DNA from: a bacterium
GTDB taxonomy: Bacteria; Blakebacterota; Blakebacteria; Blakebacterales; Blakebacteraceae
Reading direction: 5' to 3'
NCBI GenBank assembly: GCA_025774205.1
Contig: JALGWK010000014.1
Location: forward strand, 1-22,341
DNA: 22,341 nt
Part shown: piece by piece, positions 4,657 to 22,341 of the stretch
Layout of the letters: each line of letters opens with the position of its first letter
Position numbering within the stretch: position 1 is the stretch's first letter
Position numbers and translations under genes: made by a program
Notes under the pieces: model-generated
The model's input: only the letters and a program-made list of their open reading frames with translations
What the model was told of the DNA's origin: nothing
Databases searched by the model: none

Positions 4657-5865
4657 ATGAGGAATAAAGTCGATAACCGGCTGATGGTTGTGACGGCTGC
4701 CACCCTGCTGAGCCTGATGGGGGGTCAGCTCCAGGCCCAGGATGAGCCGTACGTCGTCCATGAGATCACACCGGTCATCGTGGAAGGCCCCTGGCTGGTG
4801 GCTCCGACCGCGGACGGAGTCAGCATCGTCTGGGTGACCGATTCCGAATGCCACTCACAGGTGGAATTCGGTACCTCCGCCGACCTGGGAAGGGTGGCCG
4901 AGAACGACCGGCACGGGCTCCTGCCGATCGGGACGCTCCATGCTGTCCGGCTGACGGGATTGACCCCGGGAGAGACCTGCTGGTACCGGGTGGTCTCGAC
5001 CATGGTCGTAAAGATGAAGGCCTACTGGCCGGAGAAAGGGCTCAGCGTCGAGAGTCCGGTCTACCAGTTCACTGTCCCCGATCCCGGGCAGAGCGAGGTG
5101 TCGTTCAGTTTCCTTGCCGACACCCAGCATGGGGACCTGCCGCGTATCGGAGCGAACCTCGACGCGGTCGACTGGAACGGTCTCGACTTCTTCGTCCATG
5201 GCGGGGACGCGTTCGGTTCGCTGGAGAGCGAAGAACAGCTCCTGGAGAAGCTGATCCATCCGGTGCTCGAGCGGCTGGGACACGGAATCCCCCTCGTCTT
5301 CGTCAGGGGCAACCACGAGATGCGCGGATCGTTCGCCCGGCATCTCCATGATTACGTTCCCGCTCCCGAGGGGGAATTCTATTACGCCTTCGACGCGGGG
5401 CCGGCCCACTTCCTCGTGCTCGATACCGGTGAGGACAAGGATGACGACACCAACGTCTACGCCGGACTGAACCGGACCGAACCCTACCGGGAGAAGGAAT
5501 TCGCCTGGTTCGAGGAGCATGCCAGGATTGATGAACGGTTCAGTGAGGCGCCCTTCCGGATCATCCTGATGCACGCCCCCCGGTGGGGATGGGTCGACGG
5601 CGACAATGACCGGTGGACCGGACTGGCCAACCGCACCGGCATCGACCTCGTGCTCGCGGGGCATAACCACCGCTACTCCTGGTCACCTCCCGGCAGTGAC
5701 GGCAGGGAGTACGCCGTCCTGGTCGTCGGACAGGACCAGGTGGCTGATGTCCGGGTCGGCGTAGATGAGATCACGATGAAGGTCACGGACGCGGATGGAA
5801 CCGACGTCGCCGTCCATTCGATATCCCGTTCGGAAGTCCGCGCACCTTCGCAGGGGGACACCTGA
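4657..5865 (+). CDS. Exported calcineurin-like metallophosphoesterase with N-terminal FnIII-like domain
   Basis: Secreted or periplasmic metal-dependent phosphoesterase resembling purple acid phosphatases. The N-terminus (RNKVDNRLMVVTAATLLSL up to about QLQAQ) is a signal peptide. The next ~110 residues (GVSIVWVTDSECHSQVEFG to GLTPGETCWYRV) have the FnIII-like pattern that precedes the catalytic domain in that family. The catalytic blocks follow in order: FLADTQHGD, VHGGDAFG, VRGNHEM, LMHAPRWG and LAGHNHRY, supplying the Asp, Asn and His ligands of a dinuclear metal site. ATG 4657 is preferred because GGAGG (4647-4651) lies five bases upstream; ATG 4645 would add four residues and is also plausible. 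The stop overlaps the next start by one base (TGATG), coupling a secreted enzyme to a cytoplasmic acyl-CoA synthetase, an odd pairing. The substrate is unknown. Confidence 0.87.
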   Translation: MRNKVDNRLMVVTAATLLSLMGGQLQAQDEPYVVHEITPVIVEGPWLVAPTADGVSIVWVTDSECHSQVEFGTSADLGRVAENDRHGLLPIGTLHAVRLTGLTPGETCWYRVVSTMVVKMKAYWPEKGLSVESPVYQFTVPDPGQSEVSFSFLADTQHGDLPRIGANLDAVDWNGLDFFVHGGDAFGSLESEEQLLEKLIHPVLERLGHGIPLVFVRGNHEMRGSFARHLHDYVPAPEGEFYYAFDAGPAHFLVLDTGEDKDDDTNVYAGLNRTEPYREKEFAWFEEHARIDERFSEAPFRIILMHAPRWGWVDGDNDRWTGLANRTGIDLVLAGHNHRYSWSPPGSDGREYAVLVVGQDQVADVRVGVDEITMKVTDADGTDVAVHSISRSEVRAPSQGDT

Positions 5866-7973
5866 TGACCGGCAGCATGACGGAGCGGTCACATGATCTG
5901 GACGCTCTCTTCTTCCCCCGCTCGGTGGCGGTGATCGGTGCCTCGACGAAGGAACTCTCGATCGGCAACCGGATCATCAGGAATCTCCAGGACTTCGGCT
6001 ACACCGGCCCCATTCATGCCATCAATCCGAAGGGTGAAGAGGTCCGCGGCCTGCGGCCTCATATCTCCATCCTCGATGTCCCCGGGGACGTGGAACTGGC
6101 CCACGTCGTGATACCGGCAGGGTACGTTCCGGCGGCGATGGAGGAGTGCGGCCGGAAGGGTGTGAAGGTCGTGATTGTGAACTCTGCCGGTTTCAGGGAG
6201 GTCGGCAGCGAGGGTGAGGAGCTGGAACGGCAGGTGCTGGCGATCGCTCGTGAACACGGCATCCGGGTGTTCGGGCCGAACTGCCAGGGCATCATCAACT
6301 CCGATCCCGGGGTGCGGGCCTACTGCAACTTCACCTTCACCCGTCCCCTCGAGGGCTCGATCTCGATCGTGGCCCAGAGCGGCGGGGTGGCCGAGATGAT
6401 CAATCAGCGGTTCGTCGAACTGGGTGCCGGGGTGAGGATGTACGCCTCCAACGGGAATGCCAGCGACATCTCCATCCCCGAGGTGATCCGCTACTGGGGT
6501 GATGACGAGGCGACGAAGGTGATCGTGGTTCACGTGGAGAGTCTCTCTGATCCGACGGCGTTCCTGGAAGCCTCCGTCGAGGTAGCGGCCCGGAAGCCGG
6601 TGCTGGGTATGAAGGCGGGACGCACCCCGGAGGGGGCGCAGGCCGTCTCCTCCCACACCGGCGGGCTGGCCCGGCAGGAAGTCGTCACCGAACTCCTCTT
6701 CGATAGAGCCGGGATGGTCACCTTCCGGGATGTGGAGGAGATGTGCCAGGCGGCCGTGGCCTTTTCCAGCCAGCCGGTACCGACCGGCAACCGGGTCGGA
6801 CTGATCACCAACACCGGCGGGCCGGCCATCATAGCCACCGATGAACTGGTGGAAGCCGGACTCGTCATCCCTCCCCTGAGCGAGAACACCAGGCTGGTCC
6901 TCCGGGAACAGCTTCATGCCGCGGCGTCGATCGCCAATCCCATCGATGTGCTGGCCACGGCCGGAGCGGAGCACTTCCGGTCGGCGGTGGAGGCGCTGAT
7001 GGACGAAGAGGATATCGACAGCGTCTACATCAATTTCGTCACCCCCTTCTTCGTCGATGTGGAGAGCATCGCCCGGGAACTCGTGGAGGCCAATCGGGCG
7101 GGGCGGAAGCCGATCGTCTGCAACCTGATGACCGACCGGAAGGAGTGGGCCGGAACGGTGAAGATCCTCCGGGAAGGGGGGATCCCCACCTATTCCTTCC
7201 CGGAGATGGCGGCGAAGTCGCTGGCGGCCATGACCCGCCTCCACCTGCTCCGCTCCCGGGAATCGGGGGAGCCGGTAACGTTCGAAGATGTGGACAGCGA
7301 TCGGGCCCGTGAGATCCTCGATGACGCCTGGGAGAGCGATTCGGCCTGGCTCTCCTCCGATCAGGTCTACGGGATACTGGAAGCCTACGGTCTGCCGGTG
7401 GCCAGCTGGAAGACTGTCTGCGGCGCTCCCGAGGCGGTCGCAGCGGCCGAGGAGATCGGCTTCCCGGTGGTCGTCAAGGCCGACTCGCCCGATATCGTCC
7501 ACAAGAGCGACGCCGGCGGGGTGGCGGTGGATCTGAAGGACGCCGAGGCCGTCCGGGCTGCAGTGGAACGGATGGAGGCTGCCCTTGAGCCGGTGATCCC
7601 GGACTACCTCGTCCAGGCGTACCTGCCGGGAGGGATGGAACTGATCGCAGGCGCGAAAGCAGAGGCGGGCCCGGGACACCTGATCATGTTCGGGATGGGC
7701 GGAATCCATGTCGAGGTGCTGAAGGACGTTGCCTTTGCCCTGACTCCGGTAACTCCTCCCGGAGCTGAGCGGATGATCGATTCACTCCGCTCACGGCCGG
7801 TCCTCGAGGGTGTCCGCGGCCGCAATGGTGTGGACCGGGAGGCACTGCTCGACATCATCCAGCGTCTGTCACAACTGGTCAGCGAACAGCCCTGCATCAA
7901 GGAGATCGATCTCAATCCGATCCTCGCCTTCGAAGACCGGGTAATAGTGGTTGATGCCCGGATAGGTCTCTGA
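5865..7973 (+). CDS. ADP-forming acyl-CoA synthetase (fused alpha-beta, acetyl-CoA synthetase type)
   Basis: A 702-residue NDP-forming acyl-CoA synthetase that interconverts acyl-CoA + ADP + Pi and acid + CoA + ATP in the cytoplasm. The domain order is CoA-binding (LFFPRSVAVIGAS, residues ~15-27; FGPNCQG), a succinyl-CoA-synthetase-like domain with SSHTGG carrying the catalytic phospho-His, a ligase-CoA domain (GNRVGLITNTGGPA), then ATP-grasp from about residue 490 (GFPVVVKADSPDIVHKSDAG, with the second His, and EIDLNPI near the end). Length matches fused alpha-beta enzymes. CAGGGGG lies about eight bases upstream of the ATG at 5865. In fermenting or syntrophic bacteria such enzymes make ATP from acyl-CoA, which fits an anaerobic aromatic degrader, but acyl specificity cannot be read. 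Its last 21 bases recur in the chimeric ORF at 9631-9759. Confidence 0.93.
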   Translation: MTGSMTERSHDLDALFFPRSVAVIGASTKELSIGNRIIRNLQDFGYTGPIHAINPKGEEVRGLRPHISILDVPGDVELAHVVIPAGYVPAAMEECGRKGVKVVIVNSAGFREVGSEGEELERQVLAIAREHGIRVFGPNCQGIINSDPGVRAYCNFTFTRPLEGSISIVAQSGGVAEMINQRFVELGAGVRMYASNGNASDISIPEVIRYWGDDEATKVIVVHVESLSDPTAFLEASVEVAARKPVLGMKAGRTPEGAQAVSSHTGGLARQEVVTELLFDRAGMVTFRDVEEMCQAAVAFSSQPVPTGNRVGLITNTGGPAIIATDELVEAGLVIPPLSENTRLVLREQLHAAASIANPIDVLATAGAEHFRSAVEALMDEEDIDSVYINFVTPFFVDVESIARELVEANRAGRKPIVCNLMTDRKEWAGTVKILREGGIPTYSFPEMAAKSLAAMTRLHLLRSRESGEPVTFEDVDSDRAREILDDAWESDSAWLSSDQVYGILEAYGLPVASWKTVCGAPEAVAAAEEIGFPVVVKADSPDIVHKSDAGGVAVDLKDAEAVRAAVERMEAALEPVIPDYLVQAYLPGGMELIAGAKAEAGPGHLIMFGMGGIHVEVLKDVAFALTPVTPPGAERMIDSLRSRPVLEGVRGRNGVDREALLDIIQRLSQLVSEQPCIKEIDLNPILAFEDRVIVVDARIGL

Positions 7974-9630: not shown

Positions 9631-9759
9631 ATGGCAAACTGGCTGAACATGGGTGAGATACTGCGGGTGAACGCCGGCAAGTTCCGGGGCAAGATGTGCC
9701 TGAAGGACGCCGGGAGGAGTTTCACCTTCCAGGAGATCGATGCCCGGATCGGTCTCTGA
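9631..9759 (+). pseudogene. 42-codon chimera: acyl-CoA ligase start fused to acyl-CoA synthetase end
   Basis: An open frame from ATG 9631 to TGA 9759. Bases 9631-9740 match the first 110 bases of the acyl-CoA ligase at 15260-15369 almost perfectly (two differences: the start codon and a silent third position). The match begins exactly at the start codon and ends within GAGATCGA. From GAT at 9739 the sequence instead matches the last 21 bases of the ADP-forming synthetase (7953-7973) with one difference, including its stop. The product would begin MANWLNMGEILRVNAGKF and end EIDARIGL. GGGGAG lies about nine bases upstream, so translation is possible. It has no catalytic motifs and is most likely the scar of a deletion between a ligase copy and a synthetase copy. 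Whether the 42-residue peptide is made is unknown. Confidence 0.85.
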
Positions 9760-9940: not shown

Positions 9941-10522
9941 ATGGCGGGACGCAGAGAACAGATAGTACAGGCCGCCCTGGACCTGGTCTCGGAGGAAGGC
10001 TCATCCGGACTGACCATGATGAACATCGCCCAACGCATCGGAACCTCCGACGCGGCACTCTACCGGCACTTCCGGAACAAGCTGGAGATTATGGAGGCGA
10101 TGATCCGTAAGTTCGGTTCAGATATGGTACAGGCAGCCCGGGAAGCAGCCAGGGAGGCGCCCGACCCGGTTGAGGGACTGCGGCGCATCATGCGGACACA
10201 GCTGGAGCACATTGTCCGTCAACGAGCTCTACCCCGCATGATCCTGCTGGAGGAGATCCACCTGAAGGACGAGGTACTGAAGGTAGAGGTGGAGCGGGTG
10301 ATCCGCGGCTATCTCGAGCTCATCCAGGAAAAACTGCGGGAGGCCCAGGAGATGGGCATGGTCCCTCCGGACGTGGACATCGAGGTGGCCGGTATCTCCT
10401 TCCTGGGCACTGTCCAGAGTTCGGCGATGCTCTGGTCGCTGAACCCGGAGCGGTTCCCCCTCCTCGACAGGGCCGATGCCCTGTGGCGTATCTTCACCGA
10501 CAGCATTCGTCTGCAGGGCTGA
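9941..10522 (+). CDS. TetR-family transcriptional regulator
   Basis: A 193-residue TetR-type repressor. The N-terminal helix-turn-helix region is clear: AALDLVSEEGSSGLTMMNIA (residues 11-30) followed by QRIGTSDAALYRHFRNKLEI (31-50), with the recognition-helix signature S-x-x-A-L-Y-R-H-F. The helical C-terminal domain would bind an unknown ligand. The start ATG 9941 has GGAG about seven bases upstream. The gene faces the same way as the RND transporter operon 210 bases downstream. Near-identical inverted repeats lie before both, so it most likely represses itself and the transporter operon until a hydrophobic inducer, possibly an acyl-CoA, fatty acid or lipid, binds. The ligand is a guess from neighbourhood. 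Confidence 0.93.
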   Translation: MAGRREQIVQAALDLVSEEGSSGLTMMNIAQRIGTSDAALYRHFRNKLEIMEAMIRKFGSDMVQAAREAAREAPDPVEGLRRIMRTQLEHIVRQRALPRMILLEEIHLKDEVLKVEVERVIRGYLELIQEKLREAQEMGMVPPDVDIEVAGISFLGTVQSSAMLWSLNPERFPLLDRADALWRIFTDSIRLQG

Positions 10523-10553
10523 AGACAGGCAGTGGGCAGGGGAGTATGGAAGG

Positions 10554-10584
10554 GGTTGGAGGAGACGAGGAGGTTGGAGGAGAC
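10554..10584 (+). repeat. Short direct repeat in the tetR-transporter gap
   Basis: GGTTGGAGGAGAC occurs at 10554-10566 and again at 10572-10584, a period of 18 bases, in a purine-rich stretch just after tetR. The rest of the 210-base gap (10523-10732) holds an 8-base inverted repeat TCCCGTGA (10623-10630) / TCACGGGA (10684-10691), a run of seven T (10678-10684) and the second operator. Confidence 0.8.
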
Positions 10585-10693
10585 ATGGGAGAAAAAGGAT
10601 ACAGAGGAAACGGAGGGTGATGTCCCGTGACGGGCGTCAGTGCTGTTCGGATGGCACCAGGTCAGGGAGAAGGCCCCTTTTTTTCACGGGATG

Positions 10694-10713
10694 GTTGGTA
10701 AGCACTAACTAAC
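10694..10713. promoter_or_regulatory. Putative TetR operator 2 (upstream of the RND operon)
   Basis: GTTGGTAAGCACTAACTAAC matches operator 1 at 16 of 20 positions with the same arm length and 8-base centre. The right arm ACTAAC is identical and the left arm differs by one base. It lies 20 bases before the transporter start codon, where a bound repressor would block transcription initiation or elongation. Confidence 0.72.
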
Positions 10714-10732
10714 ACACGGGAAGGTACCCGAC

Positions 10733-13078
10733 ATGAAATGGAAACACACCTGCCCATCACCGCGAATCCGTTCGGCCGCGGTGATGGTGCTGGTCGCGAT
10801 CATCACCCTGCTCGCGGCCGTACAGATCCGCTCGCACCTGAGGCTCGAGACGAATCTGGACGCCTACATGCCCGCCGACCATCCAGCGTTCGTGTACAGC
10901 GACCAGGCGGATGAATGGTTCGGGATACAGGACGCGGTGGTGGTGGTCCTGCACCACCCCGAGGGGATCTACCGCCCGGAAACGATGCAAAAACTGGTCG
11001 ACCTGACCCGTCGACTGCAGGAGTTGCCGGAGATCCGACCTGACGATGTGAAGAGCCTGGCCACCGCGGACAACATCGTGGGGAGCGAGTACGGCCTGGA
11101 CGTCCGCCCCTTCTTCCGGAAGGTGCCCGGGACGCCCGCGGAGATGGGAGCGCTCCGTCGGGAGGTGGATGGGAACGAGATGGTCAACGGCCGGCTCGTC
11201 TCGAAGGATGGGACCACCGCCCTGATCATGGCTGAGATGGACAGCGAGGACTTCAGCCAGGACCTCTACGACCGGCTTCTGGCCCTGCAGCTTGAGTTCG
11301 AGGGGCCCGAGGAGATCCACATCGCCGGGCAGCCGGTGGTGGAGGGTACGCTTGCCCTGCTCGCCCCCGAGGATATGAAGCGGATGGTTCCCATCGTGGT
11401 GGCGGTCATCGCCCTGGTCCTCCTGCTCTCGCTCCGCAGTCTGCGCTCGACGGTCATCATCCTGCTCGTGGTGCTCCTGAGTACGATCTGGACCTTTGGT
11501 CTGATGGCGGCCCTCCGCGTCCCGATGTATTCGGTGAGCACGATGATCCCGGTAATGCTCATCGCCATCGGTGTGGCCGACGGTATCCACATGCTCAGTC
11601 ATCTCGATCTCCATCTCAGGGAGCACCCGGATATCGGACCGATCGAAGCGATCCGGGACATGACCGGTCAGATGAAGACACCCGTGATCATGACTGCAGC
11701 CACGACCGCCGTGGGCTTCCTTGCTCTGATCACGTCACAGGTCTATCCGGTGAAGTACTTCGGCCTGTTCACCGCCTTCGGCGTGCTGGCGGCAATGGTG
11801 CTTTCGCTCCTCTTCCTGCCTGCCTCGCTCCACCTCGTGGGACTGCCCCGACGGAAGAGAGCGGAAATGCCGGAGAAAGACGGGTCTCCGCGAGGTGATG
11901 TGGACGGTTCGGCCCGGGAGGGTGGTATCGCCCGCCGGACCGCGGACCGGGTGCTTCGACACCGGGGAGCCGTCGCCCTTTTCTGGCTCGCGGTCGGACT
12001 GATCTCCGTACTGGGTGCCCGGCGGATATGGGTGGACTCCAGTTTCCTCGCCAAGTTCGGGCAGGAGAGTCCGATAGTGGAGGCCGACGCCTTCATCAAC
12101 GGACAGTTCGGTGGCACCTCGACCCTCAACGTCATCTTCGAAGGCGAGGATGAGGTCTTCAAGGACCCCCTGGTCTGGGAGCGCATCCAGGACCTGCAGG
12201 AGGATCTGGAGGACCGTGAGGTGGTCGGGGACACCTTCTCCCTGGCTGACTATCTGAGCCGCATGCACATGGTGATGAACGAGGACCGGCTCTCCTACAA
12301 CGTCATCCCCGACTCCCGCGAGCTGATCGCACAGTACCTGCTTCTTTACAGCATGTCGGGGGACCCGGAGGAACTGGACCGGGTGGTGGACTACGGGTAC
12401 CGGCGGGCGAATCTCCGGGTGCAGCTCAAGGGGGACAACACCCGCGTCATCGAAGCGGCGATGTCAGTGGTGGAGGAACACCGCGACCGTTTCCCGGGAC
12501 TGGAGATCCACTACGCCGGATCGGCCTACAAGAGCTTCATCTTCAGTGACCTGATCCTGGAGGGGCAGATAGGCAGCCTGGTCCTCTCCATCGTGATCAT
12601 TGTGCTGATGCTGGCGCTGATGTTCCGCAGCCTCCTTGCCGGGGTGATCGGCTCGCTTCCCGTCGTCCTGACCATCTTCATCAGTTTCGGAGTCATGGGG
12701 TACCTGGGCATACCACTCAACTCCACGACCGCCATGCTGGCCAGTATCGCCGTGGGTATCGGTATCGACTACGCCATCCACTTCATGGACCGCTTTCGCC
12801 GCAGGATGCGGGTCCACGGTGATCTTCAGCGCGCGGCCCGGGAGACCATGACCCACAGCGGGAGAGCCATCGCTTTCAATGCGATCACGGTGATCGCCGG
12901 CTTCGCCGTACTGCTCTTCTCGGTCTTCCCCCCCAACCGTGAACTCGGCGCCCTGGTGGCGCTGAACATGTTCGATGCATTCGCGGCCACGCTCACGCTC
13001 GTACTGGCCATGCTGGCCCTGAAGCGACTGCGTTTTCTGACTCGCACAACATCCTCAGTAGAAGGAGATGTACGATGA
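10733..13078 (+). CDS. RND-superfamily exporter (MMPL/HpnN-like)
   Basis: A 781-residue inner-membrane RND transporter of the MMPL/HpnN/SSD type, which moves lipids or other hydrophobic molecules out of the inner membrane using ion gradients. It has two similar halves. Each starts with one membrane helix (about residues 14-34 and 422-442) and a large periplasmic loop, then five clustered helices (about 235-380 and 625-770). The RND Asp motifs are GVADGIHMLSH in half one and GIGIDYAIHFMDRFRR in half two. A charged linker (PRRKRAEMPEKDGSPRGD) separates the halves. GGAAGG lies about eight bases before ATG 10733. The stop overlaps the LolA-like gene by four bases. With a periplasmic LolA-fold partner and an outer-membrane barrel, it suggests an envelope-spanning export or lipid-transfer route. 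The cargo is unknown. Confidence 0.92.
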   Translation: MKWKHTCPSPRIRSAAVMVLVAIITLLAAVQIRSHLRLETNLDAYMPADHPAFVYSDQADEWFGIQDAVVVVLHHPEGIYRPETMQKLVDLTRRLQELPEIRPDDVKSLATADNIVGSEYGLDVRPFFRKVPGTPAEMGALRREVDGNEMVNGRLVSKDGTTALIMAEMDSEDFSQDLYDRLLALQLEFEGPEEIHIAGQPVVEGTLALLAPEDMKRMVPIVVAVIALVLLLSLRSLRSTVIILLVVLLSTIWTFGLMAALRVPMYSVSTMIPVMLIAIGVADGIHMLSHLDLHLREHPDIGPIEAIRDMTGQMKTPVIMTAATTAVGFLALITSQVYPVKYFGLFTAFGVLAAMVLSLLFLPASLHLVGLPRRKRAEMPEKDGSPRGDVDGSAREGGIARRTADRVLRHRGAVALFWLAVGLISVLGARRIWVDSSFLAKFGQESPIVEADAFINGQFGGTSTLNVIFEGEDEVFKDPLVWERIQDLQEDLEDREVVGDTFSLADYLSRMHMVMNEDRLSYNVIPDSRELIAQYLLLYSMSGDPEELDRVVDYGYRRANLRVQLKGDNTRVIEAAMSVVEEHRDRFPGLEIHYAGSAYKSFIFSDLILEGQIGSLVLSIVIIVLMLALMFRSLLAGVIGSLPVVLTIFISFGVMGYLGIPLNSTTAMLASIAVGIGIDYAIHFMDRFRRRMRVHGDLQRAARETMTHSGRAIAFNAITVIAGFAVLLFSVFPPNRELGALVALNMFDAFAATLTLVLAMLALKRLRFLTRTTSSVEGDVR

Positions 13079-13875
13079 ATAACCTCAAGACCATCGAGGC
13101 AGGGCTGCTGGCCCTGCTACTGCTGGCCGTTGCCGTACCGACATGGTCGGTGGATGCACAGGAACTGAGCGCCGGGGAGATCATGTGGAAAGTCTACGAA
13201 CGCCCCGAGGGCGCAGACAGGACTTCGACGCTGACCATGGTCCTGCGCAACCGGTTCGGGGACGAACGGGTCCGGTCCATCAGGCAGTTCAGTATCGACC
13301 TGGGCGCAGTGGAGAAGAAGCTGATGTTCTTCACCGCCCCGGCGGATGTGAAGGATACCTCGTTCATGATCTGGAGCTACGACGAGGAGGGGCGGGAGGA
13401 CGACCAGTGGATCTACCTGCCGGCCCTGAGGAAGATCAAGCGGATCTCCTCGGAGTCGAAGGGGGACTACTTCATGGGTTCGGACTTCACCTACGACGAC
13501 CTCGGCGACCGGTGGCCGGATAAGGATACCCACACGATCCTCAGGGATGAGTCCCTGGACGGCATCCCGCACTGGGTGATAGAGAGCCGGCCGAAGGAAG
13601 CCGACTCCATGTACAGTCGCACCGTGGTGTGGGTGCGTCAGGACGGGTCATGGCTGGGGACGAAGAAGGAGTTCTACGATCCGGAAGGTGATCTTCTGAA
13701 GACCCTCACCGTGGAAAAGATCGAAGAGATCCAGGGCTACTGGACTGTGATGGAGAGTGTGATGCATAACGTCCAGAACGATCACCGCACCATAATGAGT
13801 CTCGCGGACGTGTCCATCGACGTCGGTCTGGACGGAGAACTGTTCACCGAACGCAGCATGCGGAGGGGATACTGA
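13075..13875 (+). CDS. Outer-membrane lipoprotein-sorting-like protein (LolA-like fold)
   Basis: A 266-residue periplasmic protein of the LolA_like/outer-membrane lipoprotein-sorting family that often accompanies RND transporters. The signal peptide is residues 1-28 (hydrophobic LLALLLLAVAVPTW, cleavage after VDA). The mature part has the family pattern LTMVLRNRFGDERVRSIRQF, FMIWSYDEEGREDDQWIYLP and DYFMGSDFTYDDL, which belong to the curved sheet that holds acyl chains. The strong site AGAAGGAG (13060-13067) lies seven bases before the ATG, which overlaps the transporter stop (ATGA). It probably carries a hydrophobic cargo between the transporter and the outer-membrane barrel. It is not the housekeeping LolA: it is larger and lies in a dedicated operon. 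Confidence 0.88.
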   Translation: MNNLKTIEAGLLALLLLAVAVPTWSVDAQELSAGEIMWKVYERPEGADRTSTLTMVLRNRFGDERVRSIRQFSIDLGAVEKKLMFFTAPADVKDTSFMIWSYDEEGREDDQWIYLPALRKIKRISSESKGDYFMGSDFTYDDLGDRWPDKDTHTILRDESLDGIPHWVIESRPKEADSMYSRTVVWVRQDGSWLGTKKEFYDPEGDLLKTLTVEKIEEIQGYWTVMESVMHNVQNDHRTIMSLADVSIDVGLDGELFTERSMRRGY

Positions 13876-15164
13876 TGTTGCGCATACGTGACGCAGCCGA
13901 TCGCGGCGGGCGGTTGTCGTGGGCCCTCCTGTCGGTCCTGTTCCTGCTGACGGCCCTGCCGGCCGGCGCGTCGGCCCAGACGCAGGGTGTGGACCTTTCC
14001 GGATATCTGAGGACCTACGGCGGGGTTCTGACCTCGGGGGGGAACGCGGGTGATTACGCCGTCATCCAGAACACCTTCGACCTCAGGTTGGAGCGCAGGA
14101 CCCGCTCCGGCGCCCTGTACGTCAACCCGGTGCTCTATCACTACCCCTCCCGGGATGTCGAGCCGGAGCTTCTCCTGCGGCAGGCCTATCTGGACATCTA
14201 TACCGACCACTTCGACCTGCGCCTTGGCAAACAGCAGATCGTCTGGGGCAAATCGGACGGGGTATTCATCACCGACGTGGTCTCCCCGAAGGACTTCCGG
14301 GAGTTCCTGCTCCCCGATTTCCAGGAGATCCGTGTTGGCGTGACCGGCGCCAGTCTGAACTATTACCGGGGAGGATCCACCTTCCAGGCGGTGTGGCTCC
14401 CACTCTTCGAATCGAACCGCTTCCCAGGGCAGGAGAGTCTGTGGGCGATGCCGGTACCTTCGTTCCAGGAAGGGGTGACCCTGGATCCGGATCGGGGTGA
14501 GGTCGAGGCGCGGCTGGAGAACAGCCAGCTCTTCGGTCGCTGGTCACTGCTGGGGAGCGGGGTGGACCTGGAGGTGGTGGGGGCCTGGTACCTGGATCCC
14601 AACCCGGTCTACCACATCATTCCCGCCGACGGAACACCCGGGAGCGGGGGGGTGGCCTATCTTGAGCATCACCGGTTGGTGCTGGGAGGGGGGAGCGCCG
14701 CGTGGCCGGTCGGGGGGGTGATCCTCCGCGGTGAGGTGGCCTACCAGGACGGTCGGCGCTTCCAGGCCGCGGGTCCCTCCTTCCCCGACGGCACCATGGA
14801 GAGCGATCTCCTCCACTACATGGTGGGAGCGGACTACAACGTGCTTGGCGTGGACGTGAGCGGACAGTTCATCCAGGAAGTGATGCTGGACCACCGCCCG
14901 GAAGCCCTCCGGCGCGAGCGTATCAGGACGGCCACCCTGCTCCTGAGGGACTCCTTCCGACGCGACACGCTCACACTCGAGCTGTTCACCTACTACGGTG
15001 TGGACGATAAGGATGCCCTCATCCGGTCCCGCCTTCTCTGGGACCTGGCCGACGGGTACGAACTCCAGGTCGGGATGAATCTCTTCACCGGGCCCGACTC
15101 GGGAATCTTCGGGCGTTTCGATGCCAACGACATGGCGTTTGTGAAGCTGAAGCTGAGCTTCTGA
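13875..15164 (+). CDS. Outer-membrane beta-barrel protein (DUF1302-like)
   Basis: A 429-residue predicted outer-membrane barrel. It has a signal peptide (WALLSVLFLLTALPAGASA, cleavage after residue 34), then many alternating strands and a final Phe (KLKLSF), the usual barrel-assembly signal. RLGKQQIVWGKSDGVFITDV followed by SPKDFREFLLPDFQEIRVG resembles the DUF1302 family, whose members are found with LolA-like proteins and MMPL transporters in lipid, sterol or hydrocarbon gene clusters. The start overlaps the preceding stop by one base (TGATG). This completes an inner membrane-periplasm-outer membrane set with the two upstream genes. Assignment to the family is by pattern, not search; the barrel nature is more secure than the exact family. 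Confidence 0.82.
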   Translation: MLRIRDAADRGGRLSWALLSVLFLLTALPAGASAQTQGVDLSGYLRTYGGVLTSGGNAGDYAVIQNTFDLRLERRTRSGALYVNPVLYHYPSRDVEPELLLRQAYLDIYTDHFDLRLGKQQIVWGKSDGVFITDVVSPKDFREFLLPDFQEIRVGVTGASLNYYRGGSTFQAVWLPLFESNRFPGQESLWAMPVPSFQEGVTLDPDRGEVEARLENSQLFGRWSLLGSGVDLEVVGAWYLDPNPVYHIIPADGTPGSGGVAYLEHHRLVLGGGSAAWPVGGVILRGEVAYQDGRRFQAAGPSFPDGTMESDLLHYMVGADYNVLGVDVSGQFIQEVMLDHRPEALRRERIRTATLLLRDSFRRDTLTLELFTYYGVDDKDALIRSRLLWDLADGYELQVGMNLFTGPDSGIFGRFDANDMAFVKLKLSF

Positions 15165-15259: not shown

Positions 15260-16816
15260 GTGGCGAACTGGCTGAACATGGGTGAGATACTGCGGGTGAA
15301 CGCCGGCAAGTTCCGGGGCAAGATGTGCCTGAAGGACGCCGGGAGGAGTTTCACCTTCCAGGAGATCGACAGCCGGGTCAACCGGCTGGCCCAGGGATTC
15401 ATCGACCTGGGGCTCGAGAAGGGTGACCGGATCGCGGTCTTCCTCGAGAACTCGGTCGAAATCTGTGAGATCTATTTCGCGGCCGCCAGGACCGGAGTCG
15501 TGGTGGCGCCGATCAATTTCCGCCTCGATCCAGCTACGATCCGGTACATCATCGATGACTGCGGAGCCTGCGCGCTGGTTGCCCACGATGAATGGGTGCC
15601 GATGTTCGACGGGATGGAGAGCGATCTGCCCGGCATCGAACACTACCTGGTCGTGGGGAAGGAGAGTGAGGGGTGGATCGGGTACGATCGCCTTCTGGCG
15701 AATTATCCCGATGAAGAGCCCGACCGGATCGTCCTCCCCTCCGATCCCTGGATCCAGCCTTACACCTCGGGGACCACGGGCCGTCCGAAGGGGATCGTCC
15801 GATCCCATGAATCGTACGTGGCCTTCTACCTGATCAACGCCGCCGACTTCGGCTTCACCTCACGGGACATCTGCCTCAATGTGATGCCCCTCTGTCACGT
15901 GAACTCCACCTTCTTCACCTTCACCATCAGTTACATCGGCGGCGGAGTCGTCATCCATCCCGCCCGGTCATTCGACCCGCTCGAGGTCCTCGGAGTGATC
16001 GAACGGGAGCAGATCACCTTTATCTCGCTCATCCCCACCCACTACAACATCATCCTTGGCGCCCCCCGTGACGAGGCTTCGAACTTCGATGTCTCCTCGA
16101 TCAGGAAATTGCTCTGCTCCTCGGCCCCGGTCTTCGCCGAATGCAAGCAGACCATCATGGAATTCTTCCCGGGAGTGGACCTCTACGAAGCGTATGGCTC
16201 AACCGAAGCGGGGATCGTGACGACCCTCATGCCGTGGGACCAGATGAGCCACCTCGGTTCGATCGGCAAGGAGTCGGCCGGCACCGATACCATCAGGCTG
16301 CTCGACGAGAATGGGCGAGAGGTGCAGGTTGGCGAGGTCGGCGAGATCTACTCCCGCGGTCCGATGATGTTCACCGACTATCACGGCCTGCCGGAGAAGA
16401 CTGCCGGGTCTTTCCGGGGTGAGTACTTCTCGGCCGGCGACATGGCGCGTCGGGATGATGCGGGGTATTACCATATCGTCGATCGGAAGGACAACCTGAT
16501 CATCACCGGCGGCGAACATGTCTATCCCTCAGAGGTGGAGGAGGCTCTCTCCACTCACCCGGCGGTTTTCGAGAGCGCGGTAATCGGTCTACCACACGCA
16601 AAGTGGGGTGAAGCCGTGACGGCGATAGTTGTATTGAAGAAAGGTGAGAGCGTCACGGAAGAGGAGATCATCGATCACTGTGCCGGTCGGGTCGCCTCAT
16701 TCAGAAAACCGAAAAGCGTGCGTTTCATAACGATGGAGGAGATGCCCCGGACTGGCAGCGGGAAGATCCTCCACCGGGTGCTGCGGGAGCGGTTCGCCGA
16801 TGAGAGAGCTGGTTGA
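15260..16816 (+). CDS. AMP-forming acyl-CoA ligase
   Basis: A 518-residue class I adenylate-forming enzyme that joins a carboxylic acid to CoA via an acyl-AMP. Motifs in order are the P-loop YTSGTTGRPKGIV (residues 168-180), YGSTE near 316, the hinge region DRKDNLIITGGEHVYPSEVE and the C-terminal catalytic Lys in GSGKILHRVLRE. Length is standard. GTG 15260 is the start: AGGAGG (15249-15254) sits five bases upstream, and a copied fragment at 9631 has ATG at the same codon. The motifs fit a medium/long-chain or alicyclic acid ligase. The canonical benzoate-CoA ligase P-loop differs, so an aromatic substrate is possible only from the nearby reductase operon. Its first 110 bases recur at 9631-9740. 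Confidence 0.93.
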   Translation: MANWLNMGEILRVNAGKFRGKMCLKDAGRSFTFQEIDSRVNRLAQGFIDLGLEKGDRIAVFLENSVEICEIYFAAARTGVVVAPINFRLDPATIRYIIDDCGACALVAHDEWVPMFDGMESDLPGIEHYLVVGKESEGWIGYDRLLANYPDEEPDRIVLPSDPWIQPYTSGTTGRPKGIVRSHESYVAFYLINAADFGFTSRDICLNVMPLCHVNSTFFTFTISYIGGGVVIHPARSFDPLEVLGVIEREQITFISLIPTHYNIILGAPRDEASNFDVSSIRKLLCSSAPVFAECKQTIMEFFPGVDLYEAYGSTEAGIVTTLMPWDQMSHLGSIGKESAGTDTIRLLDENGREVQVGEVGEIYSRGPMMFTDYHGLPEKTAGSFRGEYFSAGDMARRDDAGYYHIVDRKDNLIITGGEHVYPSEVEEALSTHPAVFESAVIGLPHAKWGEAVTAIVVLKKGESVTEEEIIDHCAGRVASFRKPKSVRFITMEEMPRTGSGKILHRVLRERFADERAG

Positions 16817-18158: not shown

Positions 18159-19217
18159 TCAGGGGATCAGTATCGCCCGTTTCGCCAGCTTACCCGCATG
18201 GGCCATGTCGAAGACGTCATTGATCTCCGCCAGGGGATGCTGCTCGATGAACGGCTTCACCGCGATCCTGCCGGAGGCGATCCAGTCGAGGACCTCCGGG
18301 TAGAGGGTGGGGTCGCTGCCCCAGTTGCCCTGCACGGTCGCGTCGAACGCCATCAGGTTGCTCAGCCGTACCTCCAGCTTCTCCATCGTGAACCCGACCA
18401 CGGCCAGATGGGCGCCGAAGCCGAGGAGGGTATAAGCAAGTTCCTGCCCGGGCTTCGTGCCCGAAGTTTCGAAGATCTTCCAGAGGGTGCGGGGAGCGCC
18501 GATAGCGGCGGCAGCGTCCTTTATGGCGCCCTTGATCTCTTTCGTCTCCAGGTCGGTGACGTTGATGACCGCGTCCGCGCCGTGCTGCGAGGCGGTTTCA
18601 AGTTTCCCGTCATCGATGTCGAGGGCGAGCACCTTTGCGCCGACCGCGGCAGCGATCTGGACGCAGTGGATGCCGATCCCGCCGGTCCCGACGATGATGG
18701 CGAGTTCTCCCTCGATCAGTCCTGAGAGGAGCACCGACTGGAAGGGAGTGCTGATGGCGTCCGCGACGACAGCGAGTTCCCACAGTTCGTGTTCGGCCAG
18801 TACCGCCTCACTGACGGGGCAGAGGTAGCGGGCGGGCACCACGGCGTGGGACGCGAAACCGCCGTGGCGGTCGTTGCCCGGCATGATCTGGGCACGGCAG
18901 ATACGAAGGTTGCCTGAGGTGCAGAGGTCGCATTCCCCGCAGGGCAGGACCGCCGGGACGAGGACAGGAGTGCCGACGAGAGCCGTATCGACACCGTCAC
19001 CCACCTCCACGACCGTGCCGCTGATCTCGTGGCCGAGCACCAGGGGAAGTTCGGCCCGGGTTTTGACTCCGAAGTGGAGAAAGGAGATGTCGGTGTGGCA
19101 AACCCCGCATCCGGCTGTTTCGACGAGGGCTTCTCCGGGGGCGAGAGATTCGAAGGGTACCTCACCCTCCTCGAACGGCTCGCCCGGTGCGGTCATCATC
19201 CAGCCTCTGATCGTCAT
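18159..19217 (-). CDS. had: 6-hydroxycyclohex-1-ene-1-carbonyl-CoA dehydrogenase (Zn-ADH family)
   Basis: A 352-residue zinc alcohol dehydrogenase expected to oxidise 6-hydroxycyclohex-1-ene-1-carbonyl-CoA with NAD+ in anaerobic benzoyl-CoA degradation. Catalytic-zinc residues are in GCGVCHTD (Cys37) and GHE (His63, Glu64). The structural-zinc Cys set is Cys93, Cys96, Cys99 and Cys107. The Rossmann motif GTGGIG is at 177-182. The stretch PGNDRHGGFASHAVVPAR and the acidic-loop pattern after CDLCTSG closely match the Thauera/Azoarcus Had/BzdX group as I remember it, rather than generic alcohol dehydrogenases. Its start overlaps the ATPase stop by four bases, making it the last gene of the reductase operon. 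The hydratase and ring hydrolase normally acting beside it are not in view. Confidence 0.88.
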   Translation of the reverse strand: MTIRGWMMTAPGEPFEEGEVPFESLAPGEALVETAGCGVCHTDISFLHFGVKTRAELPLVLGHEISGTVVEVGDGVDTALVGTPVLVPAVLPCGECDLCTSGNLRICRAQIMPGNDRHGGFASHAVVPARYLCPVSEAVLAEHELWELAVVADAISTPFQSVLLSGLIEGELAIIVGTGGIGIHCVQIAAAVGAKVLALDIDDGKLETASQHGADAVINVTDLETKEIKGAIKDAAAAIGAPRTLWKIFETSGTKPGQELAYTLLGFGAHLAVVGFTMEKLEVRLSNLMAFDATVQGNWGSDPTLYPEVLDWIASGRIAVKPFIEQHPLAEINDVFDMAHAGKLAKRAILIP

Positions 19218-20014
19218 GGCGCGTCTCCCTTTCGAACACTCCCGATCTCATGCAGGCAGGCCAGCGCCGCCCCGAAAGCTCCCACCTCCTGGGGGTGGGG
19301 GGGCACGACGACCGTGCCGCCGAATGCCTCTTCCATCATCTCCACGACCACCGGGTGGTGAGCGACGACACCGCCGGTCGCCACGACCGCACCCTCGAAG
19401 ACATCCATCTCCAGCACCCGCCTGACGATCGACCGGTAGGACGCGCGGGCCAGGTCGGCCGGGTTCTTCCCCTGCCGGATGCTGGTCAGCACCTCGGTCC
19501 CGGTGAAGACGGTGCAGAAGCTGCCCAGCTCAAGCTCCTCGGTGAATCCCGCCGCCAGATCGTGGAATCCCTCGATAGGGACGCCGAGGCGGAGCGCCAT
19601 CTCCTCGAGGAAACTGCCCGTACCGGCGGCGCACTTCCGGTTCATCTTGTGTGAGAGGCGACGCCCCCGGTCGTCGAGCCGGATGACCTTGGCGTCCTGA
19701 CCGCCGATGTCGACGATTGTAACGGCGCCCTTCACGTGATGGTGAACACCACGGGCGTGACAGTCGAGTTCGGTCCGGGTGCCGTCGGCGAAGGGGATAT
19801 TGGCGCGCCCGAATCCGGTGGCCCAGACCGCGCCGCACGCCTCCCGTTCGATCCCCGCCGCCTGAAGCGCTCCCTCGAAGGCCCGGGTGGCGGCGCCGGC
19901 CAGGTCGGCGGCGGTACGCTCGACGAGGCTGCCCAGCAGGTTGGCCTCATCGTCGATCACCACCGCCTTGGTGGTCCAGGTGCCGCTGTCGATGCCGGCG
20001 AAGATCCGGTCCAT
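19214..20014 (-). CDS. Benzoyl-CoA reductase activator-type ATPase (BcrD/BzdQ-like)
   Basis: A 266-residue member of the BadF/BadG/HgdC ATPase family. It hydrolyses ATP to drive low-potential electrons from its [4Fe-4S] cluster to a reductase or dehydratase. The canonical set is intact: GIDSGTWTTKAV (residues 7-18), ATGFGR (65-70), DIGGQDAKV (102-110), the cluster ligand in NRKCAAGTGSFLEEMA (Cys128), the second ligand in GSFCTVF (Cys167) and VATGGVV near 210. Length fits the short ATPase subunits. The start shares one base with the stop of the subunit gene before it (TGATG), and its stop overlaps the dehydrogenase start. It is most likely the partner of the 415-residue subunit just upstream. 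A 2-hydroxyacyl-CoA dehydratase activator is the alternative; the dehydrogenase neighbour favours benzoyl-CoA reductase. Confidence 0.88.
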   Translation of the reverse strand: MDRIFAGIDSGTWTTKAVVIDDEANLLGSLVERTAADLAGAATRAFEGALQAAGIEREACGAVWATGFGRANIPFADGTRTELDCHARGVHHHVKGAVTIVDIGGQDAKVIRLDDRGRRLSHKMNRKCAAGTGSFLEEMALRLGVPIEGFHDLAAGFTEELELGSFCTVFTGTEVLTSIRQGKNPADLARASYRSIVRRVLEMDVFEGAVVATGGVVAHHPVVVEMMEEAFGGTVVVPPHPQEVGAFGAALACLHEIGSVRKGDAP

Positions 20015-21261
20015 CAGCCGCCGGCACTTTCCGCTGTTCGGCCACGTTCCTCCAGCTGTTCGATGAAGCCCTCGAGGCTGGTCCGGGTCTGTTCCGAGGA
20101 GTAACAGCGGAGATCTATCTGGTCCCCCTCGATCGTGATCACCGGGATGTCGAGCTGATCCCGCAACCGTTCCGGCATGCCGTACCGGCAGTTCGAGTTG
20201 TTCGGACAGGTACGGCTGTCATGGAACACGATGCCATCGACCGAGAACTCCCGCACCATCTGTTCGACATAGCTTTCCTTCGGGGTATCGGATCGGACGA
20301 TGAACAGTTCCAGCGAGGCCCTCGCCATGGAGCGGAAGGGATCGGCCCGGTCAAGGGCGTCGAAGATCCAGCTGTTGCAGTAGGTCGAGGCCACCACGGT
20401 GGTCGCCAGTTCGGCAAAGAGTTCCGAGAGTTCCCGGAGCTTGCCCCAGACCGGCATGCCATCCCAGTAGAGCCGGAACCGTTCACCCTCGACGGCGGCC
20501 ACTCCGTCATCGACCCGCTGCTGCAGTTCGGCCAGAAAAAGGCGGTAATACTCATTGGCAGCCGGCATCCCCCGCATCGTCACGACTGGACCCATGTGGA
20601 TGGTGCCGTCGAAGAAGGTGAGGGGAGCGGGTCTGCTGGCCGCCATCGCCATGCACGCCTTCCAGAGATCGACGCATTCCTTCGAGAGGTCGAGGATTTC
20701 TCCGAACCGGTCGTCGGTCAGCTTCGTGCCCGCGATCTCTTCCAGGGTTGGAACCAGATCCTCCATCTGGCTCGCGATGGCGTCGACCTGGACGTCGGTC
20801 ACGGTCTCGATCATGTGGAGAGATTCAACCCCGATCACCGGCACATCCCAGGTGCGGCCATAGAACTCATACCAGTCGCGGACGTCCCGGCACTGGTTGG
20901 TGTTGAAGACGAGCACATCCGGCTTCGGAACCTCGTCGATACCGAAGGCCGAGAAGGGGGTCTCGCCGGCGAGCCAGGCGCCGATGTCGGCGGTGAGGTA
21001 GGAGCAGATATCCTGGGAGTAGCCGCGGGCATGCGCCTTGGTCATGTAGTCGTTGGCAGTCCTGGCCGCTCCCATCATCGAACTGTGGTTCTCCGGGAAA
21101 TGAACCCGGTAGCCGAGCGCCCGCAGGATCTCAACCGGTCCGGTGCTGGTGCACCAGGCAACCGGAGCCGATTTCGTGGCGGCGGCCTGCCCCAGCTCGA
21201 GGTAGTAGCCAACCATTGTTTCTTTCAGACTGGCTGTGCTCTCAAGGACCCTTCGCTTCAT
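20014..21261 (-). CDS. Benzoyl-CoA reductase subunit (BcrB/BzdO-like)
   Basis: A 415-residue subunit of the 2-hydroxyacyl-CoA dehydratase/benzoyl-CoA reductase family, expected to hold a [4Fe-4S] cluster in the ring-reducing module. It tracks the Thauera BcrB pattern as I remember it: HARGYSQDICSYLTADIG (Cys86), PKPDVLVFNTNQC (Cys124), FFDGTIHMGPVVTMRG (216-231), ERFRLYWDGMPVW (260-272), and FHDSRTC (Cys352), ending IEGDQIDLRCYSSEQTRTSL. Cys86, Cys124 and Cys352 are the likely cluster ligands. Length is near the BcrB size. It lies 41 bases after the upstream ATPase and shares one base with the next ATPase. Substrate assignment to benzoyl-CoA rests mainly on the adjacent dehydrogenase. Confidence 0.87.
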   Translation of the reverse strand: MKRRVLESTASLKETMVGYYLELGQAAATKSAPVAWCTSTGPVEILRALGYRVHFPENHSSMMGAARTANDYMTKAHARGYSQDICSYLTADIGAWLAGETPFSAFGIDEVPKPDVLVFNTNQCRDVRDWYEFYGRTWDVPVIGVESLHMIETVTDVQVDAIASQMEDLVPTLEEIAGTKLTDDRFGEILDLSKECVDLWKACMAMAASRPAPLTFFDGTIHMGPVVTMRGMPAANEYYRLFLAELQQRVDDGVAAVEGERFRLYWDGMPVWGKLRELSELFAELATTVVASTYCNSWIFDALDRADPFRSMARASLELFIVRSDTPKESYVEQMVREFSVDGIVFHDSRTCPNNSNCRYGMPERLRDQLDIPVITIEGDQIDLRCYSSEQTRTSLEGFIEQLEERGRTAESAGG

Positions 21262-21302
21262 CGTCCGCTCCAGTGCTCGATGATTGCTCTCATCCGATCC
21301 GT

Positions 21303-22076
21303 TCAGAGTATCTTCAGCGCGGCCCCGAGAGCGCCGGTCATGATCGGTTCGGGGACTGCTTCGACAGCGAAACCGGTGAGATCGGAGATGGATTTGAGTA
21401 CGCCGGGAAAGTACTCGGCCACTCCGCCGGTGACCACGACCGGTTCCCGCAAGCCCCCGATCTCGTAGATCCGTTCAGCGACCGATCGCATGGTGCCGAA
21501 AGCGATGTCCTCGCGTCTGGCGCCATCCCTCAGTTGTTCGAGGATCTCCACCTCGGAGAAGACGGAACAGTAGCTACCGATCGGTGCGGGGTTGTCTGCT
21601 TCCGCTGCCAGTTCCTGGAGTTTGGTGGGATGGACGTCAAGGTGCCGGGCCGTAAACATCAGGAACGTTCCGATACCGATGGCGCACCGGCGCACCAGCT
21701 TTGTATCGAGGATTCTTCCGTCATCGTCGATTCGTACGACCTTTGGATCACTGCCGCCGATATCGATTATCGACATCGCCTGCTGCAGATGATGCCATGC
21801 GCCGGCGGCGTGGCAGGCGGTTTCACCTGCGATCGAGACGGCGTCCGGGACACATTCGGCCGCGAATCCGGTTGCAGTCAGGGCAGTGAGATCGTCCCTC
21901 GTGATCCCCGCCTCATCGAGGGCCTGATCCAGGGCCTCTTCGATCCGGTGTTGGAAGTATCCGCTGGTCGGAACGATCGCCCGCCCCCGGATGCCGACTC
22001 CTTCTTCCATGACCACGGCCTTGACGCACTCGGTACCGACGTCGGCCGCCGCGACTACTCTGTTCGATTCAGACAT
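21303..22076 (-). CDS. Activator-type ATPase, divergent (BcrA/BzdP-like)
   Basis: A 257-residue ATPase of the BadF/BadG family. Both cluster Cys are present: RRCAIGIGTF (Cys131) and GSYCSVFSEVE (Cys170). VTGGVAEYFPG lies near residue 215. Three nucleotide-site motifs differ from the usual form: ADVGTECVKAV at residues 11-21, where most members have a Ser/Thr-Thr-Thr run; DIGGSDPK at 105-112, where Gln is usual; and CAIGIG in place of CAAGTG. It may therefore be a functional but specialised subunit, or a weak ATPase that binds nucleotide for assembly. Upstream there is AGGAA about six bases before the ATG. It lies 21 bases after the truncated subunit gene, its probable partner. Some bzd-type clusters carry two short ATPases like this pair. 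Confidence 0.83.
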   Translation of the reverse strand: MSESNRVVAAADVGTECVKAVVMEEGVGIRGRAIVPTSGYFQHRIEEALDQALDEAGITRDDLTALTATGFAAECVPDAVSIAGETACHAAGAWHHLQQAMSIIDIGGSDPKVVRIDDDGRILDTKLVRRCAIGIGTFLMFTARHLDVHPTKLQELAAEADNPAPIGSYCSVFSEVEILEQLRDGARREDIAFGTMRSVAERIYEIGGLREPVVVTGGVAEYFPGVLKSISDLTGFAVEAVPEPIMTGALGAALKIL

Positions 22077-22097
22077 GACGGTTCCTGTTCATCGGTA

Positions 22098-22341
22098 TCA
22101 CGTGACCTCCTGAGGCACGACCTGGTCGGAGAGGGCCCCATCCTGCTGCTCGATGAAGTCGAGGACCTGCTGCTGAAGGTTCCTGATGGAGAAAAGTCTG
22201 AGGTCGTGGGCGTCAGCCTCGAAGACAATCGTCGGCAGGCCGGTCGCCCGTCGGAGCTTCACCTCAAGACCGTAACGGACGTTGCTGAGTTCGGGTGAGG
22301 TCCGTCCCTCGTGGAAGACCACGCAATCGATGGCGTTGGTC
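22098..22341 (-). CDS. Second reductase-type subunit, C-terminal part (cut by window edge)
   Basis: About 81 C-terminal residues are visible. They align with the C-terminus of the 415-residue subunit over about 62 residues, roughly 26 identical, sharing V-F-H, R-T-x-P, S-N-x-R-Y-G and E-x-D-x-x-D-L-R plus a final F-I-E-Q. It is thus a paralogous BcrB/HgdA-like chain rather than a BcrC-like one, which would be expected to carry a different C-terminal pattern. The Cys352 position of the paralog is Ser here (RTSPELSN) and Cys358 is Val, so the usual cluster ligand is missing in this part. An upstream Cys sits in AIDCVVFH. The rest of the gene, and its other ligands, are outside the window. Confidence 0.75.
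   Translation of the reverse strand, partial: TNAIDCVVFHEGRTSPELSNVRYGLEVKLRRATGLPTIVFEADAHDLRLFSIRNLQQQVLDFIEQQDGALSDQVVPQEVT

Follow-up and report, generated by a model that had tools for sequence, protein, structure and literature searches.

The final 4.2 kb of a 22,341-nucleotide contig from a Blakebacterota bacterium (GCA_025774205.1, JALGWK010000014.1) hold a minus-strand operon in which two subunits of the HGD-D type, X and Y, alternate with two activase-family ATPases. This raises the question as to which reaction such an operon serves, and why one subunit-ATPase pair looks canonical and the other degenerate. The initial annotation proposed a benzoyl-CoA reductase (BCR), one half of which might be regulatory or electron-storing, or might have diverged after a duplication. 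We lean towards the view that the operon encodes a member of the BCR/2-hydroxyacyl-CoA dehydratase (HAD) radical family that belongs on the dehydratase side, with aryllactyl-CoA as the most likely substrate, and that X is paired with Y as a cluster-less carrier of a ketopantoate reductase (KPR) domain. The window analysed here is the entire contig (C499) of metagenome-assembled genome (MAG) G000 (3.09 Mb; completeness 85.85%); in MAGs, incompleteness may hide genes.

Transcription proceeds from X, of which the contig end leaves only the C-terminal 80 aa (22098..22341), through ATPase1 (21303..22076; PF01869, E 1.4e-36), Y (20014..21261; PF06050, E 1.2e-63) and ATPase2 (19214..20014; TIGR00241, 191 bits against a cut-off of 125) to Had, a protein of the 6-hydroxycyclohex-1-ene-1-carbonyl-CoA dehydrogenase family (18159..19217; TIGR03201, 454 bits against 338.65), all on the minus strand. 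This is the gene order initially described, and the layout given for 19214–22341 holds as well, whereas the extent does not, as the operon continues to 18159. X and ATPase1 are separated by 21 bases and ATPase1 and Y by 41 bases; Y overlaps ATPase2, and ATPase2 overlaps Had. No match to a promoter or terminator was found in the region. The Pfam HGD-D and BcrAD_BadFG matches of Y and both ATPases have E values of 1e-36 to 1e-64, and these family assignments are therefore not due to chance. Had is the sole match to its family found in the genome.

Is this operon the benzoyl-CoA reductase of its host? All four proteins, X being tested in full length, score below every Bcr and Bzd equivalog cut-off: the BcrB model gives Y 132 bits against a cut-off of 487 and the BzdO model 88 against 449, and the two ATPases reach 113 and 81 of 380 bits for BzdQ and 107 and 86 of 578 for BcrA. 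No BcrC-type gene is present within the operon, in agreement with the initial annotation, and X is of the alpha type and not a BcrC/BzdN-type partner. Bzd-type genes are found elsewhere: a sister MAG from the same genus (G001) carries, on a contig of its own, an N-O-P-Q cluster whose N, O and Q pass their cut-offs, and G000 has a matching cluster, truncated and also on another contig. This latter cluster (L009 1–5607, contig C163) is cut at the contig start, its BzdO is interrupted near the end, and a large ferredoxin/GltD-like oxidoreductase gene follows. BcrB is over its cut-off in the 10 other genomes tested that have the interleaved gene order (group I, see below). Among the X-bearing genomes in the phylum of genome G027, G134 alone has neither BcrB nor BzdO; here the BcrB calls for G143 and G155 are based solely on X-profile scores, and the G130 match is a fragment below the cut-off. 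The view that the operon is the benzoyl-CoA reductase of this genome is not supported, and operons of this kind may have been wrongly labelled as benzoyl-CoA reductases.

The affinities of Y point to the dehydratases. Its AlphaFold2 model (pLDDT 94) matches HadB best (Z 51.0, 1.7 Å), followed by BzdO (46.9), MbdO (43.3), the double-cubane cluster protein DCCP (33.7) and HadC (32.7). The cluster ligands of BzdO are Cys95, Cys128 and Cys380 (PMC11971306, on the BzdNO structure). Of the three cysteines in Y, Cys86 (codon 21004..21006, minus strand) aligns with the HadB/BzdO cluster ligand, Cys124 (20890..20892, minus) with BzdO Cys128 and Cys352 (20206..20208, minus) with BzdO Cys380, and all are present in 42/42 Y sequences. 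Y thus combines the fold of a HAD alpha subunit with an intact site for a predicted catalytic [4Fe-4S] cluster, although this site is common to BCR alpha subunits and HADs and is therefore not diagnostic. Positions 58, 122 and 127 carry the HAD-type N, N and V, where BcrB has I, T and F and BzdO has P, H and H. For both Y and X, HadB is the best-scoring HGD-D model in NCBIfam, above BcrB and BzdO. The Y branch has at least 456 confirmed relatives; some Y matches are flagged with in-frame stops, which likely reflect end overrun, since the Y genes are open domains in most of those loci.

Subunit X is a different matter, as the window holds only its end. In the sister MAG, X is a protein of 709 aa, intact to the contig edge, that consists of an N-terminal KPR (PanE/ApbA) domain, which passes the TIGR00745 cut-off, and the HGD-D part. 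The 80 residues in the window are 77% identical to the end of this protein over 78 residues; the missing 5' part was not found in the other contigs of G000. Upstream, where the initial annotation advised looking for a BcrC-like gene, relatives have a fused ketopantoate-reductase-type domain instead. The KPR-X fusion is present in nine group I loci, a contig end truncating a further two, and at full length in eight more genomes, and the KPR Rossmann motif and catalytic K, N, S and E are intact in these relatives, the window lacking that part. In a model of one such protein (L060, pLDDT 88.8), the HGD domain is nearer to HadB (Z 47.3) than to HadC (Z 32.6), and the KPR domain matches ketopantoate reductases and D-mandelate dehydrogenase (Z about 37–37.6). 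The initial observation that X lacks the ligand cysteines also stands: the three-Cys set is complete in 0/11 X, and the second Cys is Gly in all 11, the window itself showing only the third position, a Ser. In addition, an alignment position that is Ser in most HAD-type proteins is covered by ten X, nine of which have Gly there; Glu57 is kept. With its cluster site lost, X is unlikely to store electrons. In the subunit tree the X clade falls outside BcrC/BzdN/HadC (100% SH-aLRT split), and tree and fold together rule out X as a BcrC-type chain. The best explanation is that X is a cluster-less duplicate of the alpha subunit that carries an oxoacid reductase; no description of a KPR-HAD fusion was found in the literature searched.

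The asymmetry extends to the ATPases. As initially proposed, ATPase2, like Y, looks canonical, with GGQD and RKCAAGTG intact, and ATPase1 has altered ATP motifs, with GGSD in place of GGQD at the phosphate-2 motif. Most of its relatives have GG[RS][DE] or similar at this position, and ATPase1 keeps both Cys aligned with those that bridge the activase [4Fe-4S] cluster. The BCR activase BzdP is degenerate at the same motif (GAEE). At L050 (4399–5199) and in the L052/L053 Bcr clusters, one activase each lacks GGQD (GAEE, GALH) and retains both Cys; canonical/degenerate ATPase pairs may be general.

How did the two modules arise? X forms one clade (support 100) that is sister to all Y (99), and the two ATPases group in a single clade (100) that is distinct from the Bcr, Bzd, HadI and HgdC activases. 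These relations support duplication of a subunit-ATPase module, so that the picture of a canonical module set beside a degenerate one, the two having diverged after duplication, is borne out by trees and motifs. They also suggest that the ATPase asymmetry arose independently of BCR, unless the tree is wrong. BcrB, BzdO and the BcrC/BzdN/HadC group are each separate from X+Y, with deeper joins unsure owing to long branches. In approximately unbiased tests of a duplication inside interleaved group I, neither the grouping of X with group I Y (p 0.37) nor that of ATPase1 with ATPase2 (p 0.84) was rejected. The order X-ATPase1-Y-ATPase2 occurs in 11 loci among the matches listed, nine of them complete, hosted by Eisenbacteria, Gemmatimonadota, an Acidobacteria MAG, Anaeromyxobacter and the sister MAG; it is indeed unusual compared with class I BCR, but a fixed trait in the loci of relatives. 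In the phylum of G027 the modules are separate, as hydratase-KPR/X-ATPase1-Had and Y-ATPase2-acyl-CoA synthetase-transporter, and the interleaved order may therefore represent two joined modules, with Y-ATPase2 placed between ATPase1 and Had.

Neighbouring genes indicate what the enzyme might act on. Among 69 Y-only loci, KPR is present in 21 and a GlcD/F-type hydroxyacid dehydrogenase in 10, with both in none (zero-overlap chance about 0.02); these are two unrelated kinds of 2-oxo/2-hydroxyacid oxidoreductase. An NDP-forming ligase is found in 34 of these loci, an AMP-forming ligase in 25 and IorA/IorB/PaaK genes in 12. Locus L113 has the order IorA-IorB-PaaK-KPR-ATPase2-Y-synthetase-ligase-thiolase. 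X operons in the phylum of G027 read short-chain dehydrogenase/reductase (SDR)-thiolase-OB/Zn protein-hydratase-KPR/X-ATPase1-Had, where an OB/zinc-ribbon protein accompanies the thiolase and the enoyl-CoA hydratase is not Dch by cut-off; an HcrA-like gene is often nearby. These neighbours fit a path from a 2-oxoacid via the (R)-2-hydroxyacid, its CoA ester and an enoyl-CoA to an aroyl-CoA. In one locus (L044 7233–11085), two tandem HadB-like alpha genes stand with one BzdN/HadC-type beta gene and an AMP ligase, giving three HGD-D genes in this cluster.

From these neighbours we infer the substrate, the direction and the pairing of X with Y. The KPR domain on X would make an (R)-2-hydroxyacid from a 2-oxoacid, and a ligase would add CoA. 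ATPase2 would then fire an electron into the catalytic [4Fe-4S] cluster of Y, upon which the (R)-2-hydroxyacyl-CoA, most likely aryllactyl-CoA, would lose water to give arylacrylyl-CoA. Hydratase, SDR and thiolase could cut this product to benzoyl- or 4-hydroxybenzoyl-CoA for the BCR encoded elsewhere in the genome. For its part, X is probably the partner of Y, a scaffold that bears the KPR domain, and ATPase1 may match it as the impaired member of an activase heterodimer with ATPase2. HADs recycle one activating electron, whereas in class I BCRs the partner subunit provides a second cluster (PMC11971306); X-Y has one three-Cys site only.

Several points weigh against this proposal. Y misses the HadB equivalog cut-off (213 of 750 bits) and is not HadB itself, the dehydratase activity is a prediction, and the choice of an aromatic substrate is based on neighbours only. 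Enzymes of the KPR family accept several kinds of ketone. Had in the operon and the class I BCR genes that nearly all X-bearing genomes carry indicate a close link with the benzoyl-CoA pathway, asymmetric activase pairs are elsewhere a trait of BCRs, and the neighbours of Y in two loci (L094 and L126) keep a reductase alive as an explanation. Finally, the ligase must act between the free-acid KPR step and the CoA-ester dehydratase, so that the fusion is not simple channelling unless KPR uses the CoA ester. This last possibility leads to an unlikely variant, in which KPR-X/Y is a two-in-one enzyme at the CoA-ester level: KPR would convert a 2-oxoacyl-CoA to the (R)-2-hydroxyacyl-CoA, which would pass to the single radical site of Y, and with X and ATPase1 a homodimeric HAD would have evolved into an asymmetric, one-cluster complex, much as in BCR but independently. 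If true, the benzoyl-CoA pathway would gain a further entry, from aromatic 2-oxoacids.

It is also improbable that the operon encodes a reductase that acts on an aroyl-CoA at the expense of ATP; this would be a second class I-like BCR, evolved convergently for a substituted benzoyl-CoA, and Had would oxidise its hydrated product. Had at the operon end, over its equivalog cut-off, would be well explained, as would loci L094 and L126, where Y-ATPase2 lies beside Had, Oah and a Dch-like hydratase, and the ATPase asymmetry resembles that of BzdP/BzdQ, one of which lost GGQD. However, Bzd-type BCR genes are present elsewhere in the genome and complete in the sister MAG, a partner with a second cluster is lacking, the cluster site of X is lost, Y groups apart from BcrB and BzdO with HAD-like active-site letters, and the KPR or GlcD/F linkage is left unexplained.

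We regard it as similarly improbable, if anything a little more so, that Y-ATPase2 alone is the enzyme, as a homodimer, with KPR-X-ATPase1 a separate or regulatory unit outside the catalytic complex. Several genomes have Y without a partner: Y is the sole PF06050 match in G076 and G078 and the sole full-length one in G073 and G089, beside weak or partial ones, and in G070 and G072, both recorded under chromosome titles, it is the only match besides a Bzd pair. The separate X-ATPase1 and Y-ATPase2 operons in the phylum of G027 point the same way. Against this, X occurs with Y in 10 of the 11 X-bearing genomes among 80 from that phylum, Y without X occurring in 4 (Fisher p 6e-9), X is interleaved with Y in the 11 listed loci from several phyla, and X retains the fold and other conserved residues. 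The reverse direction, in which arylacrylyl-CoA is hydrated to the 2-hydroxyacyl-CoA, KPR or GlcD/F oxidise this to arylpyruvate and Ior forms arylacetyl-CoA, is improbable: GlcD/F-type dehydrogenases usually oxidise and several loci have IorAB and PaaK nearby, but with the hydratase, SDR and thiolase genes of X operons the same acyl-CoA could undergo ordinary beta-oxidation.

The remainder of the window contains two ligase genes of types linked to Y in relatives, namely an AMP-forming acyl-CoA ligase (15260..16816, plus strand; PF00501), often Y-linked, and an NDP-forming acyl-CoA synthetase (5865..7973, plus; PF13607/PF13549), often adjoining Y-ATPase2. A 119-base direct repeat, 96% identical (9632–9750 and 15261–15379), places a second copy of the AMP-ligase gene start 5.6 kb upstream, in the stretch that separates the end of an M28-peptidase-like gene from a TetR gene. 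Positions 9941–15164 encode a TetR regulator, an MMPL transporter, a LolA-like protein and a DUF1302 protein in a row, an export-type cluster, and at 730–2849 an Antibiotic_NAT-type acetyltransferase gene overlaps a DUF4910/DUF2172/HTH_47 gene.

Taken as a dehydratase, the operon would belong to a widespread branch whose dehydratase-type subunit can do without a partner, and to a sub-branch that gained a cluster-less twin fused to a dehydrogenase and a degenerate activase. The origin of asymmetric complexes, class I BCR among them, could be tested on this case, which also suggests how aromatic 2-oxo or 2-hydroxy acids might enter anaerobic ring cleavage. To our knowledge, solved BCR/HAD members catalyse with two different subunits that each bear a cluster, double-cubane proteins excepted. 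In DCCP, one HGD-D gene product works without a second type of subunit. DCCP/DCCP-R (PDB 6ENO, 7YYL) shares the superfamily and the activase coupling with our operon, but the fold match of Y to DCCP is far weaker than that to HadB. The phenyllactyl-CoA dehydratase FldBC/FldI of Clostridium sporogenes catalyses the reaction type proposed here and is likened to the operon by reaction. FldBC consists of two HGD-D subunits. A benzene degrader has a gene about 30% identical to FldB (PMC13416013). Class I BCRs (BcrCBAD, BzdNOPQ, MbdONQP) resemble the operon in having two HGD-D and two activase-family subunits, one activase being degenerate, and in their benzoyl-CoA pathway neighbours; the operon differs in failing the equivalogs, alternating its genes, lacking a second-cluster BcrC/BzdN chain, forming a separate clade and coexisting with Bzd-type genes. 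From HadBC/HadI, the (R)-2-hydroxyisocaproyl-CoA dehydratase of Clostridioides difficile (PDB 3O3M, 4EHT), it differs in having no HadC-type beta subunit with its own cluster, in the cluster-less alpha-type paralogue X with KPR in relatives, in its two activases and in the missed HadB cut-off, whereas it shares with that system the fold and three-Cys site of Y (Z 51, 28% identity to HadB), the activase family and the linkage to hydroxyacid dehydrogenase and CoA-activating enzymes.

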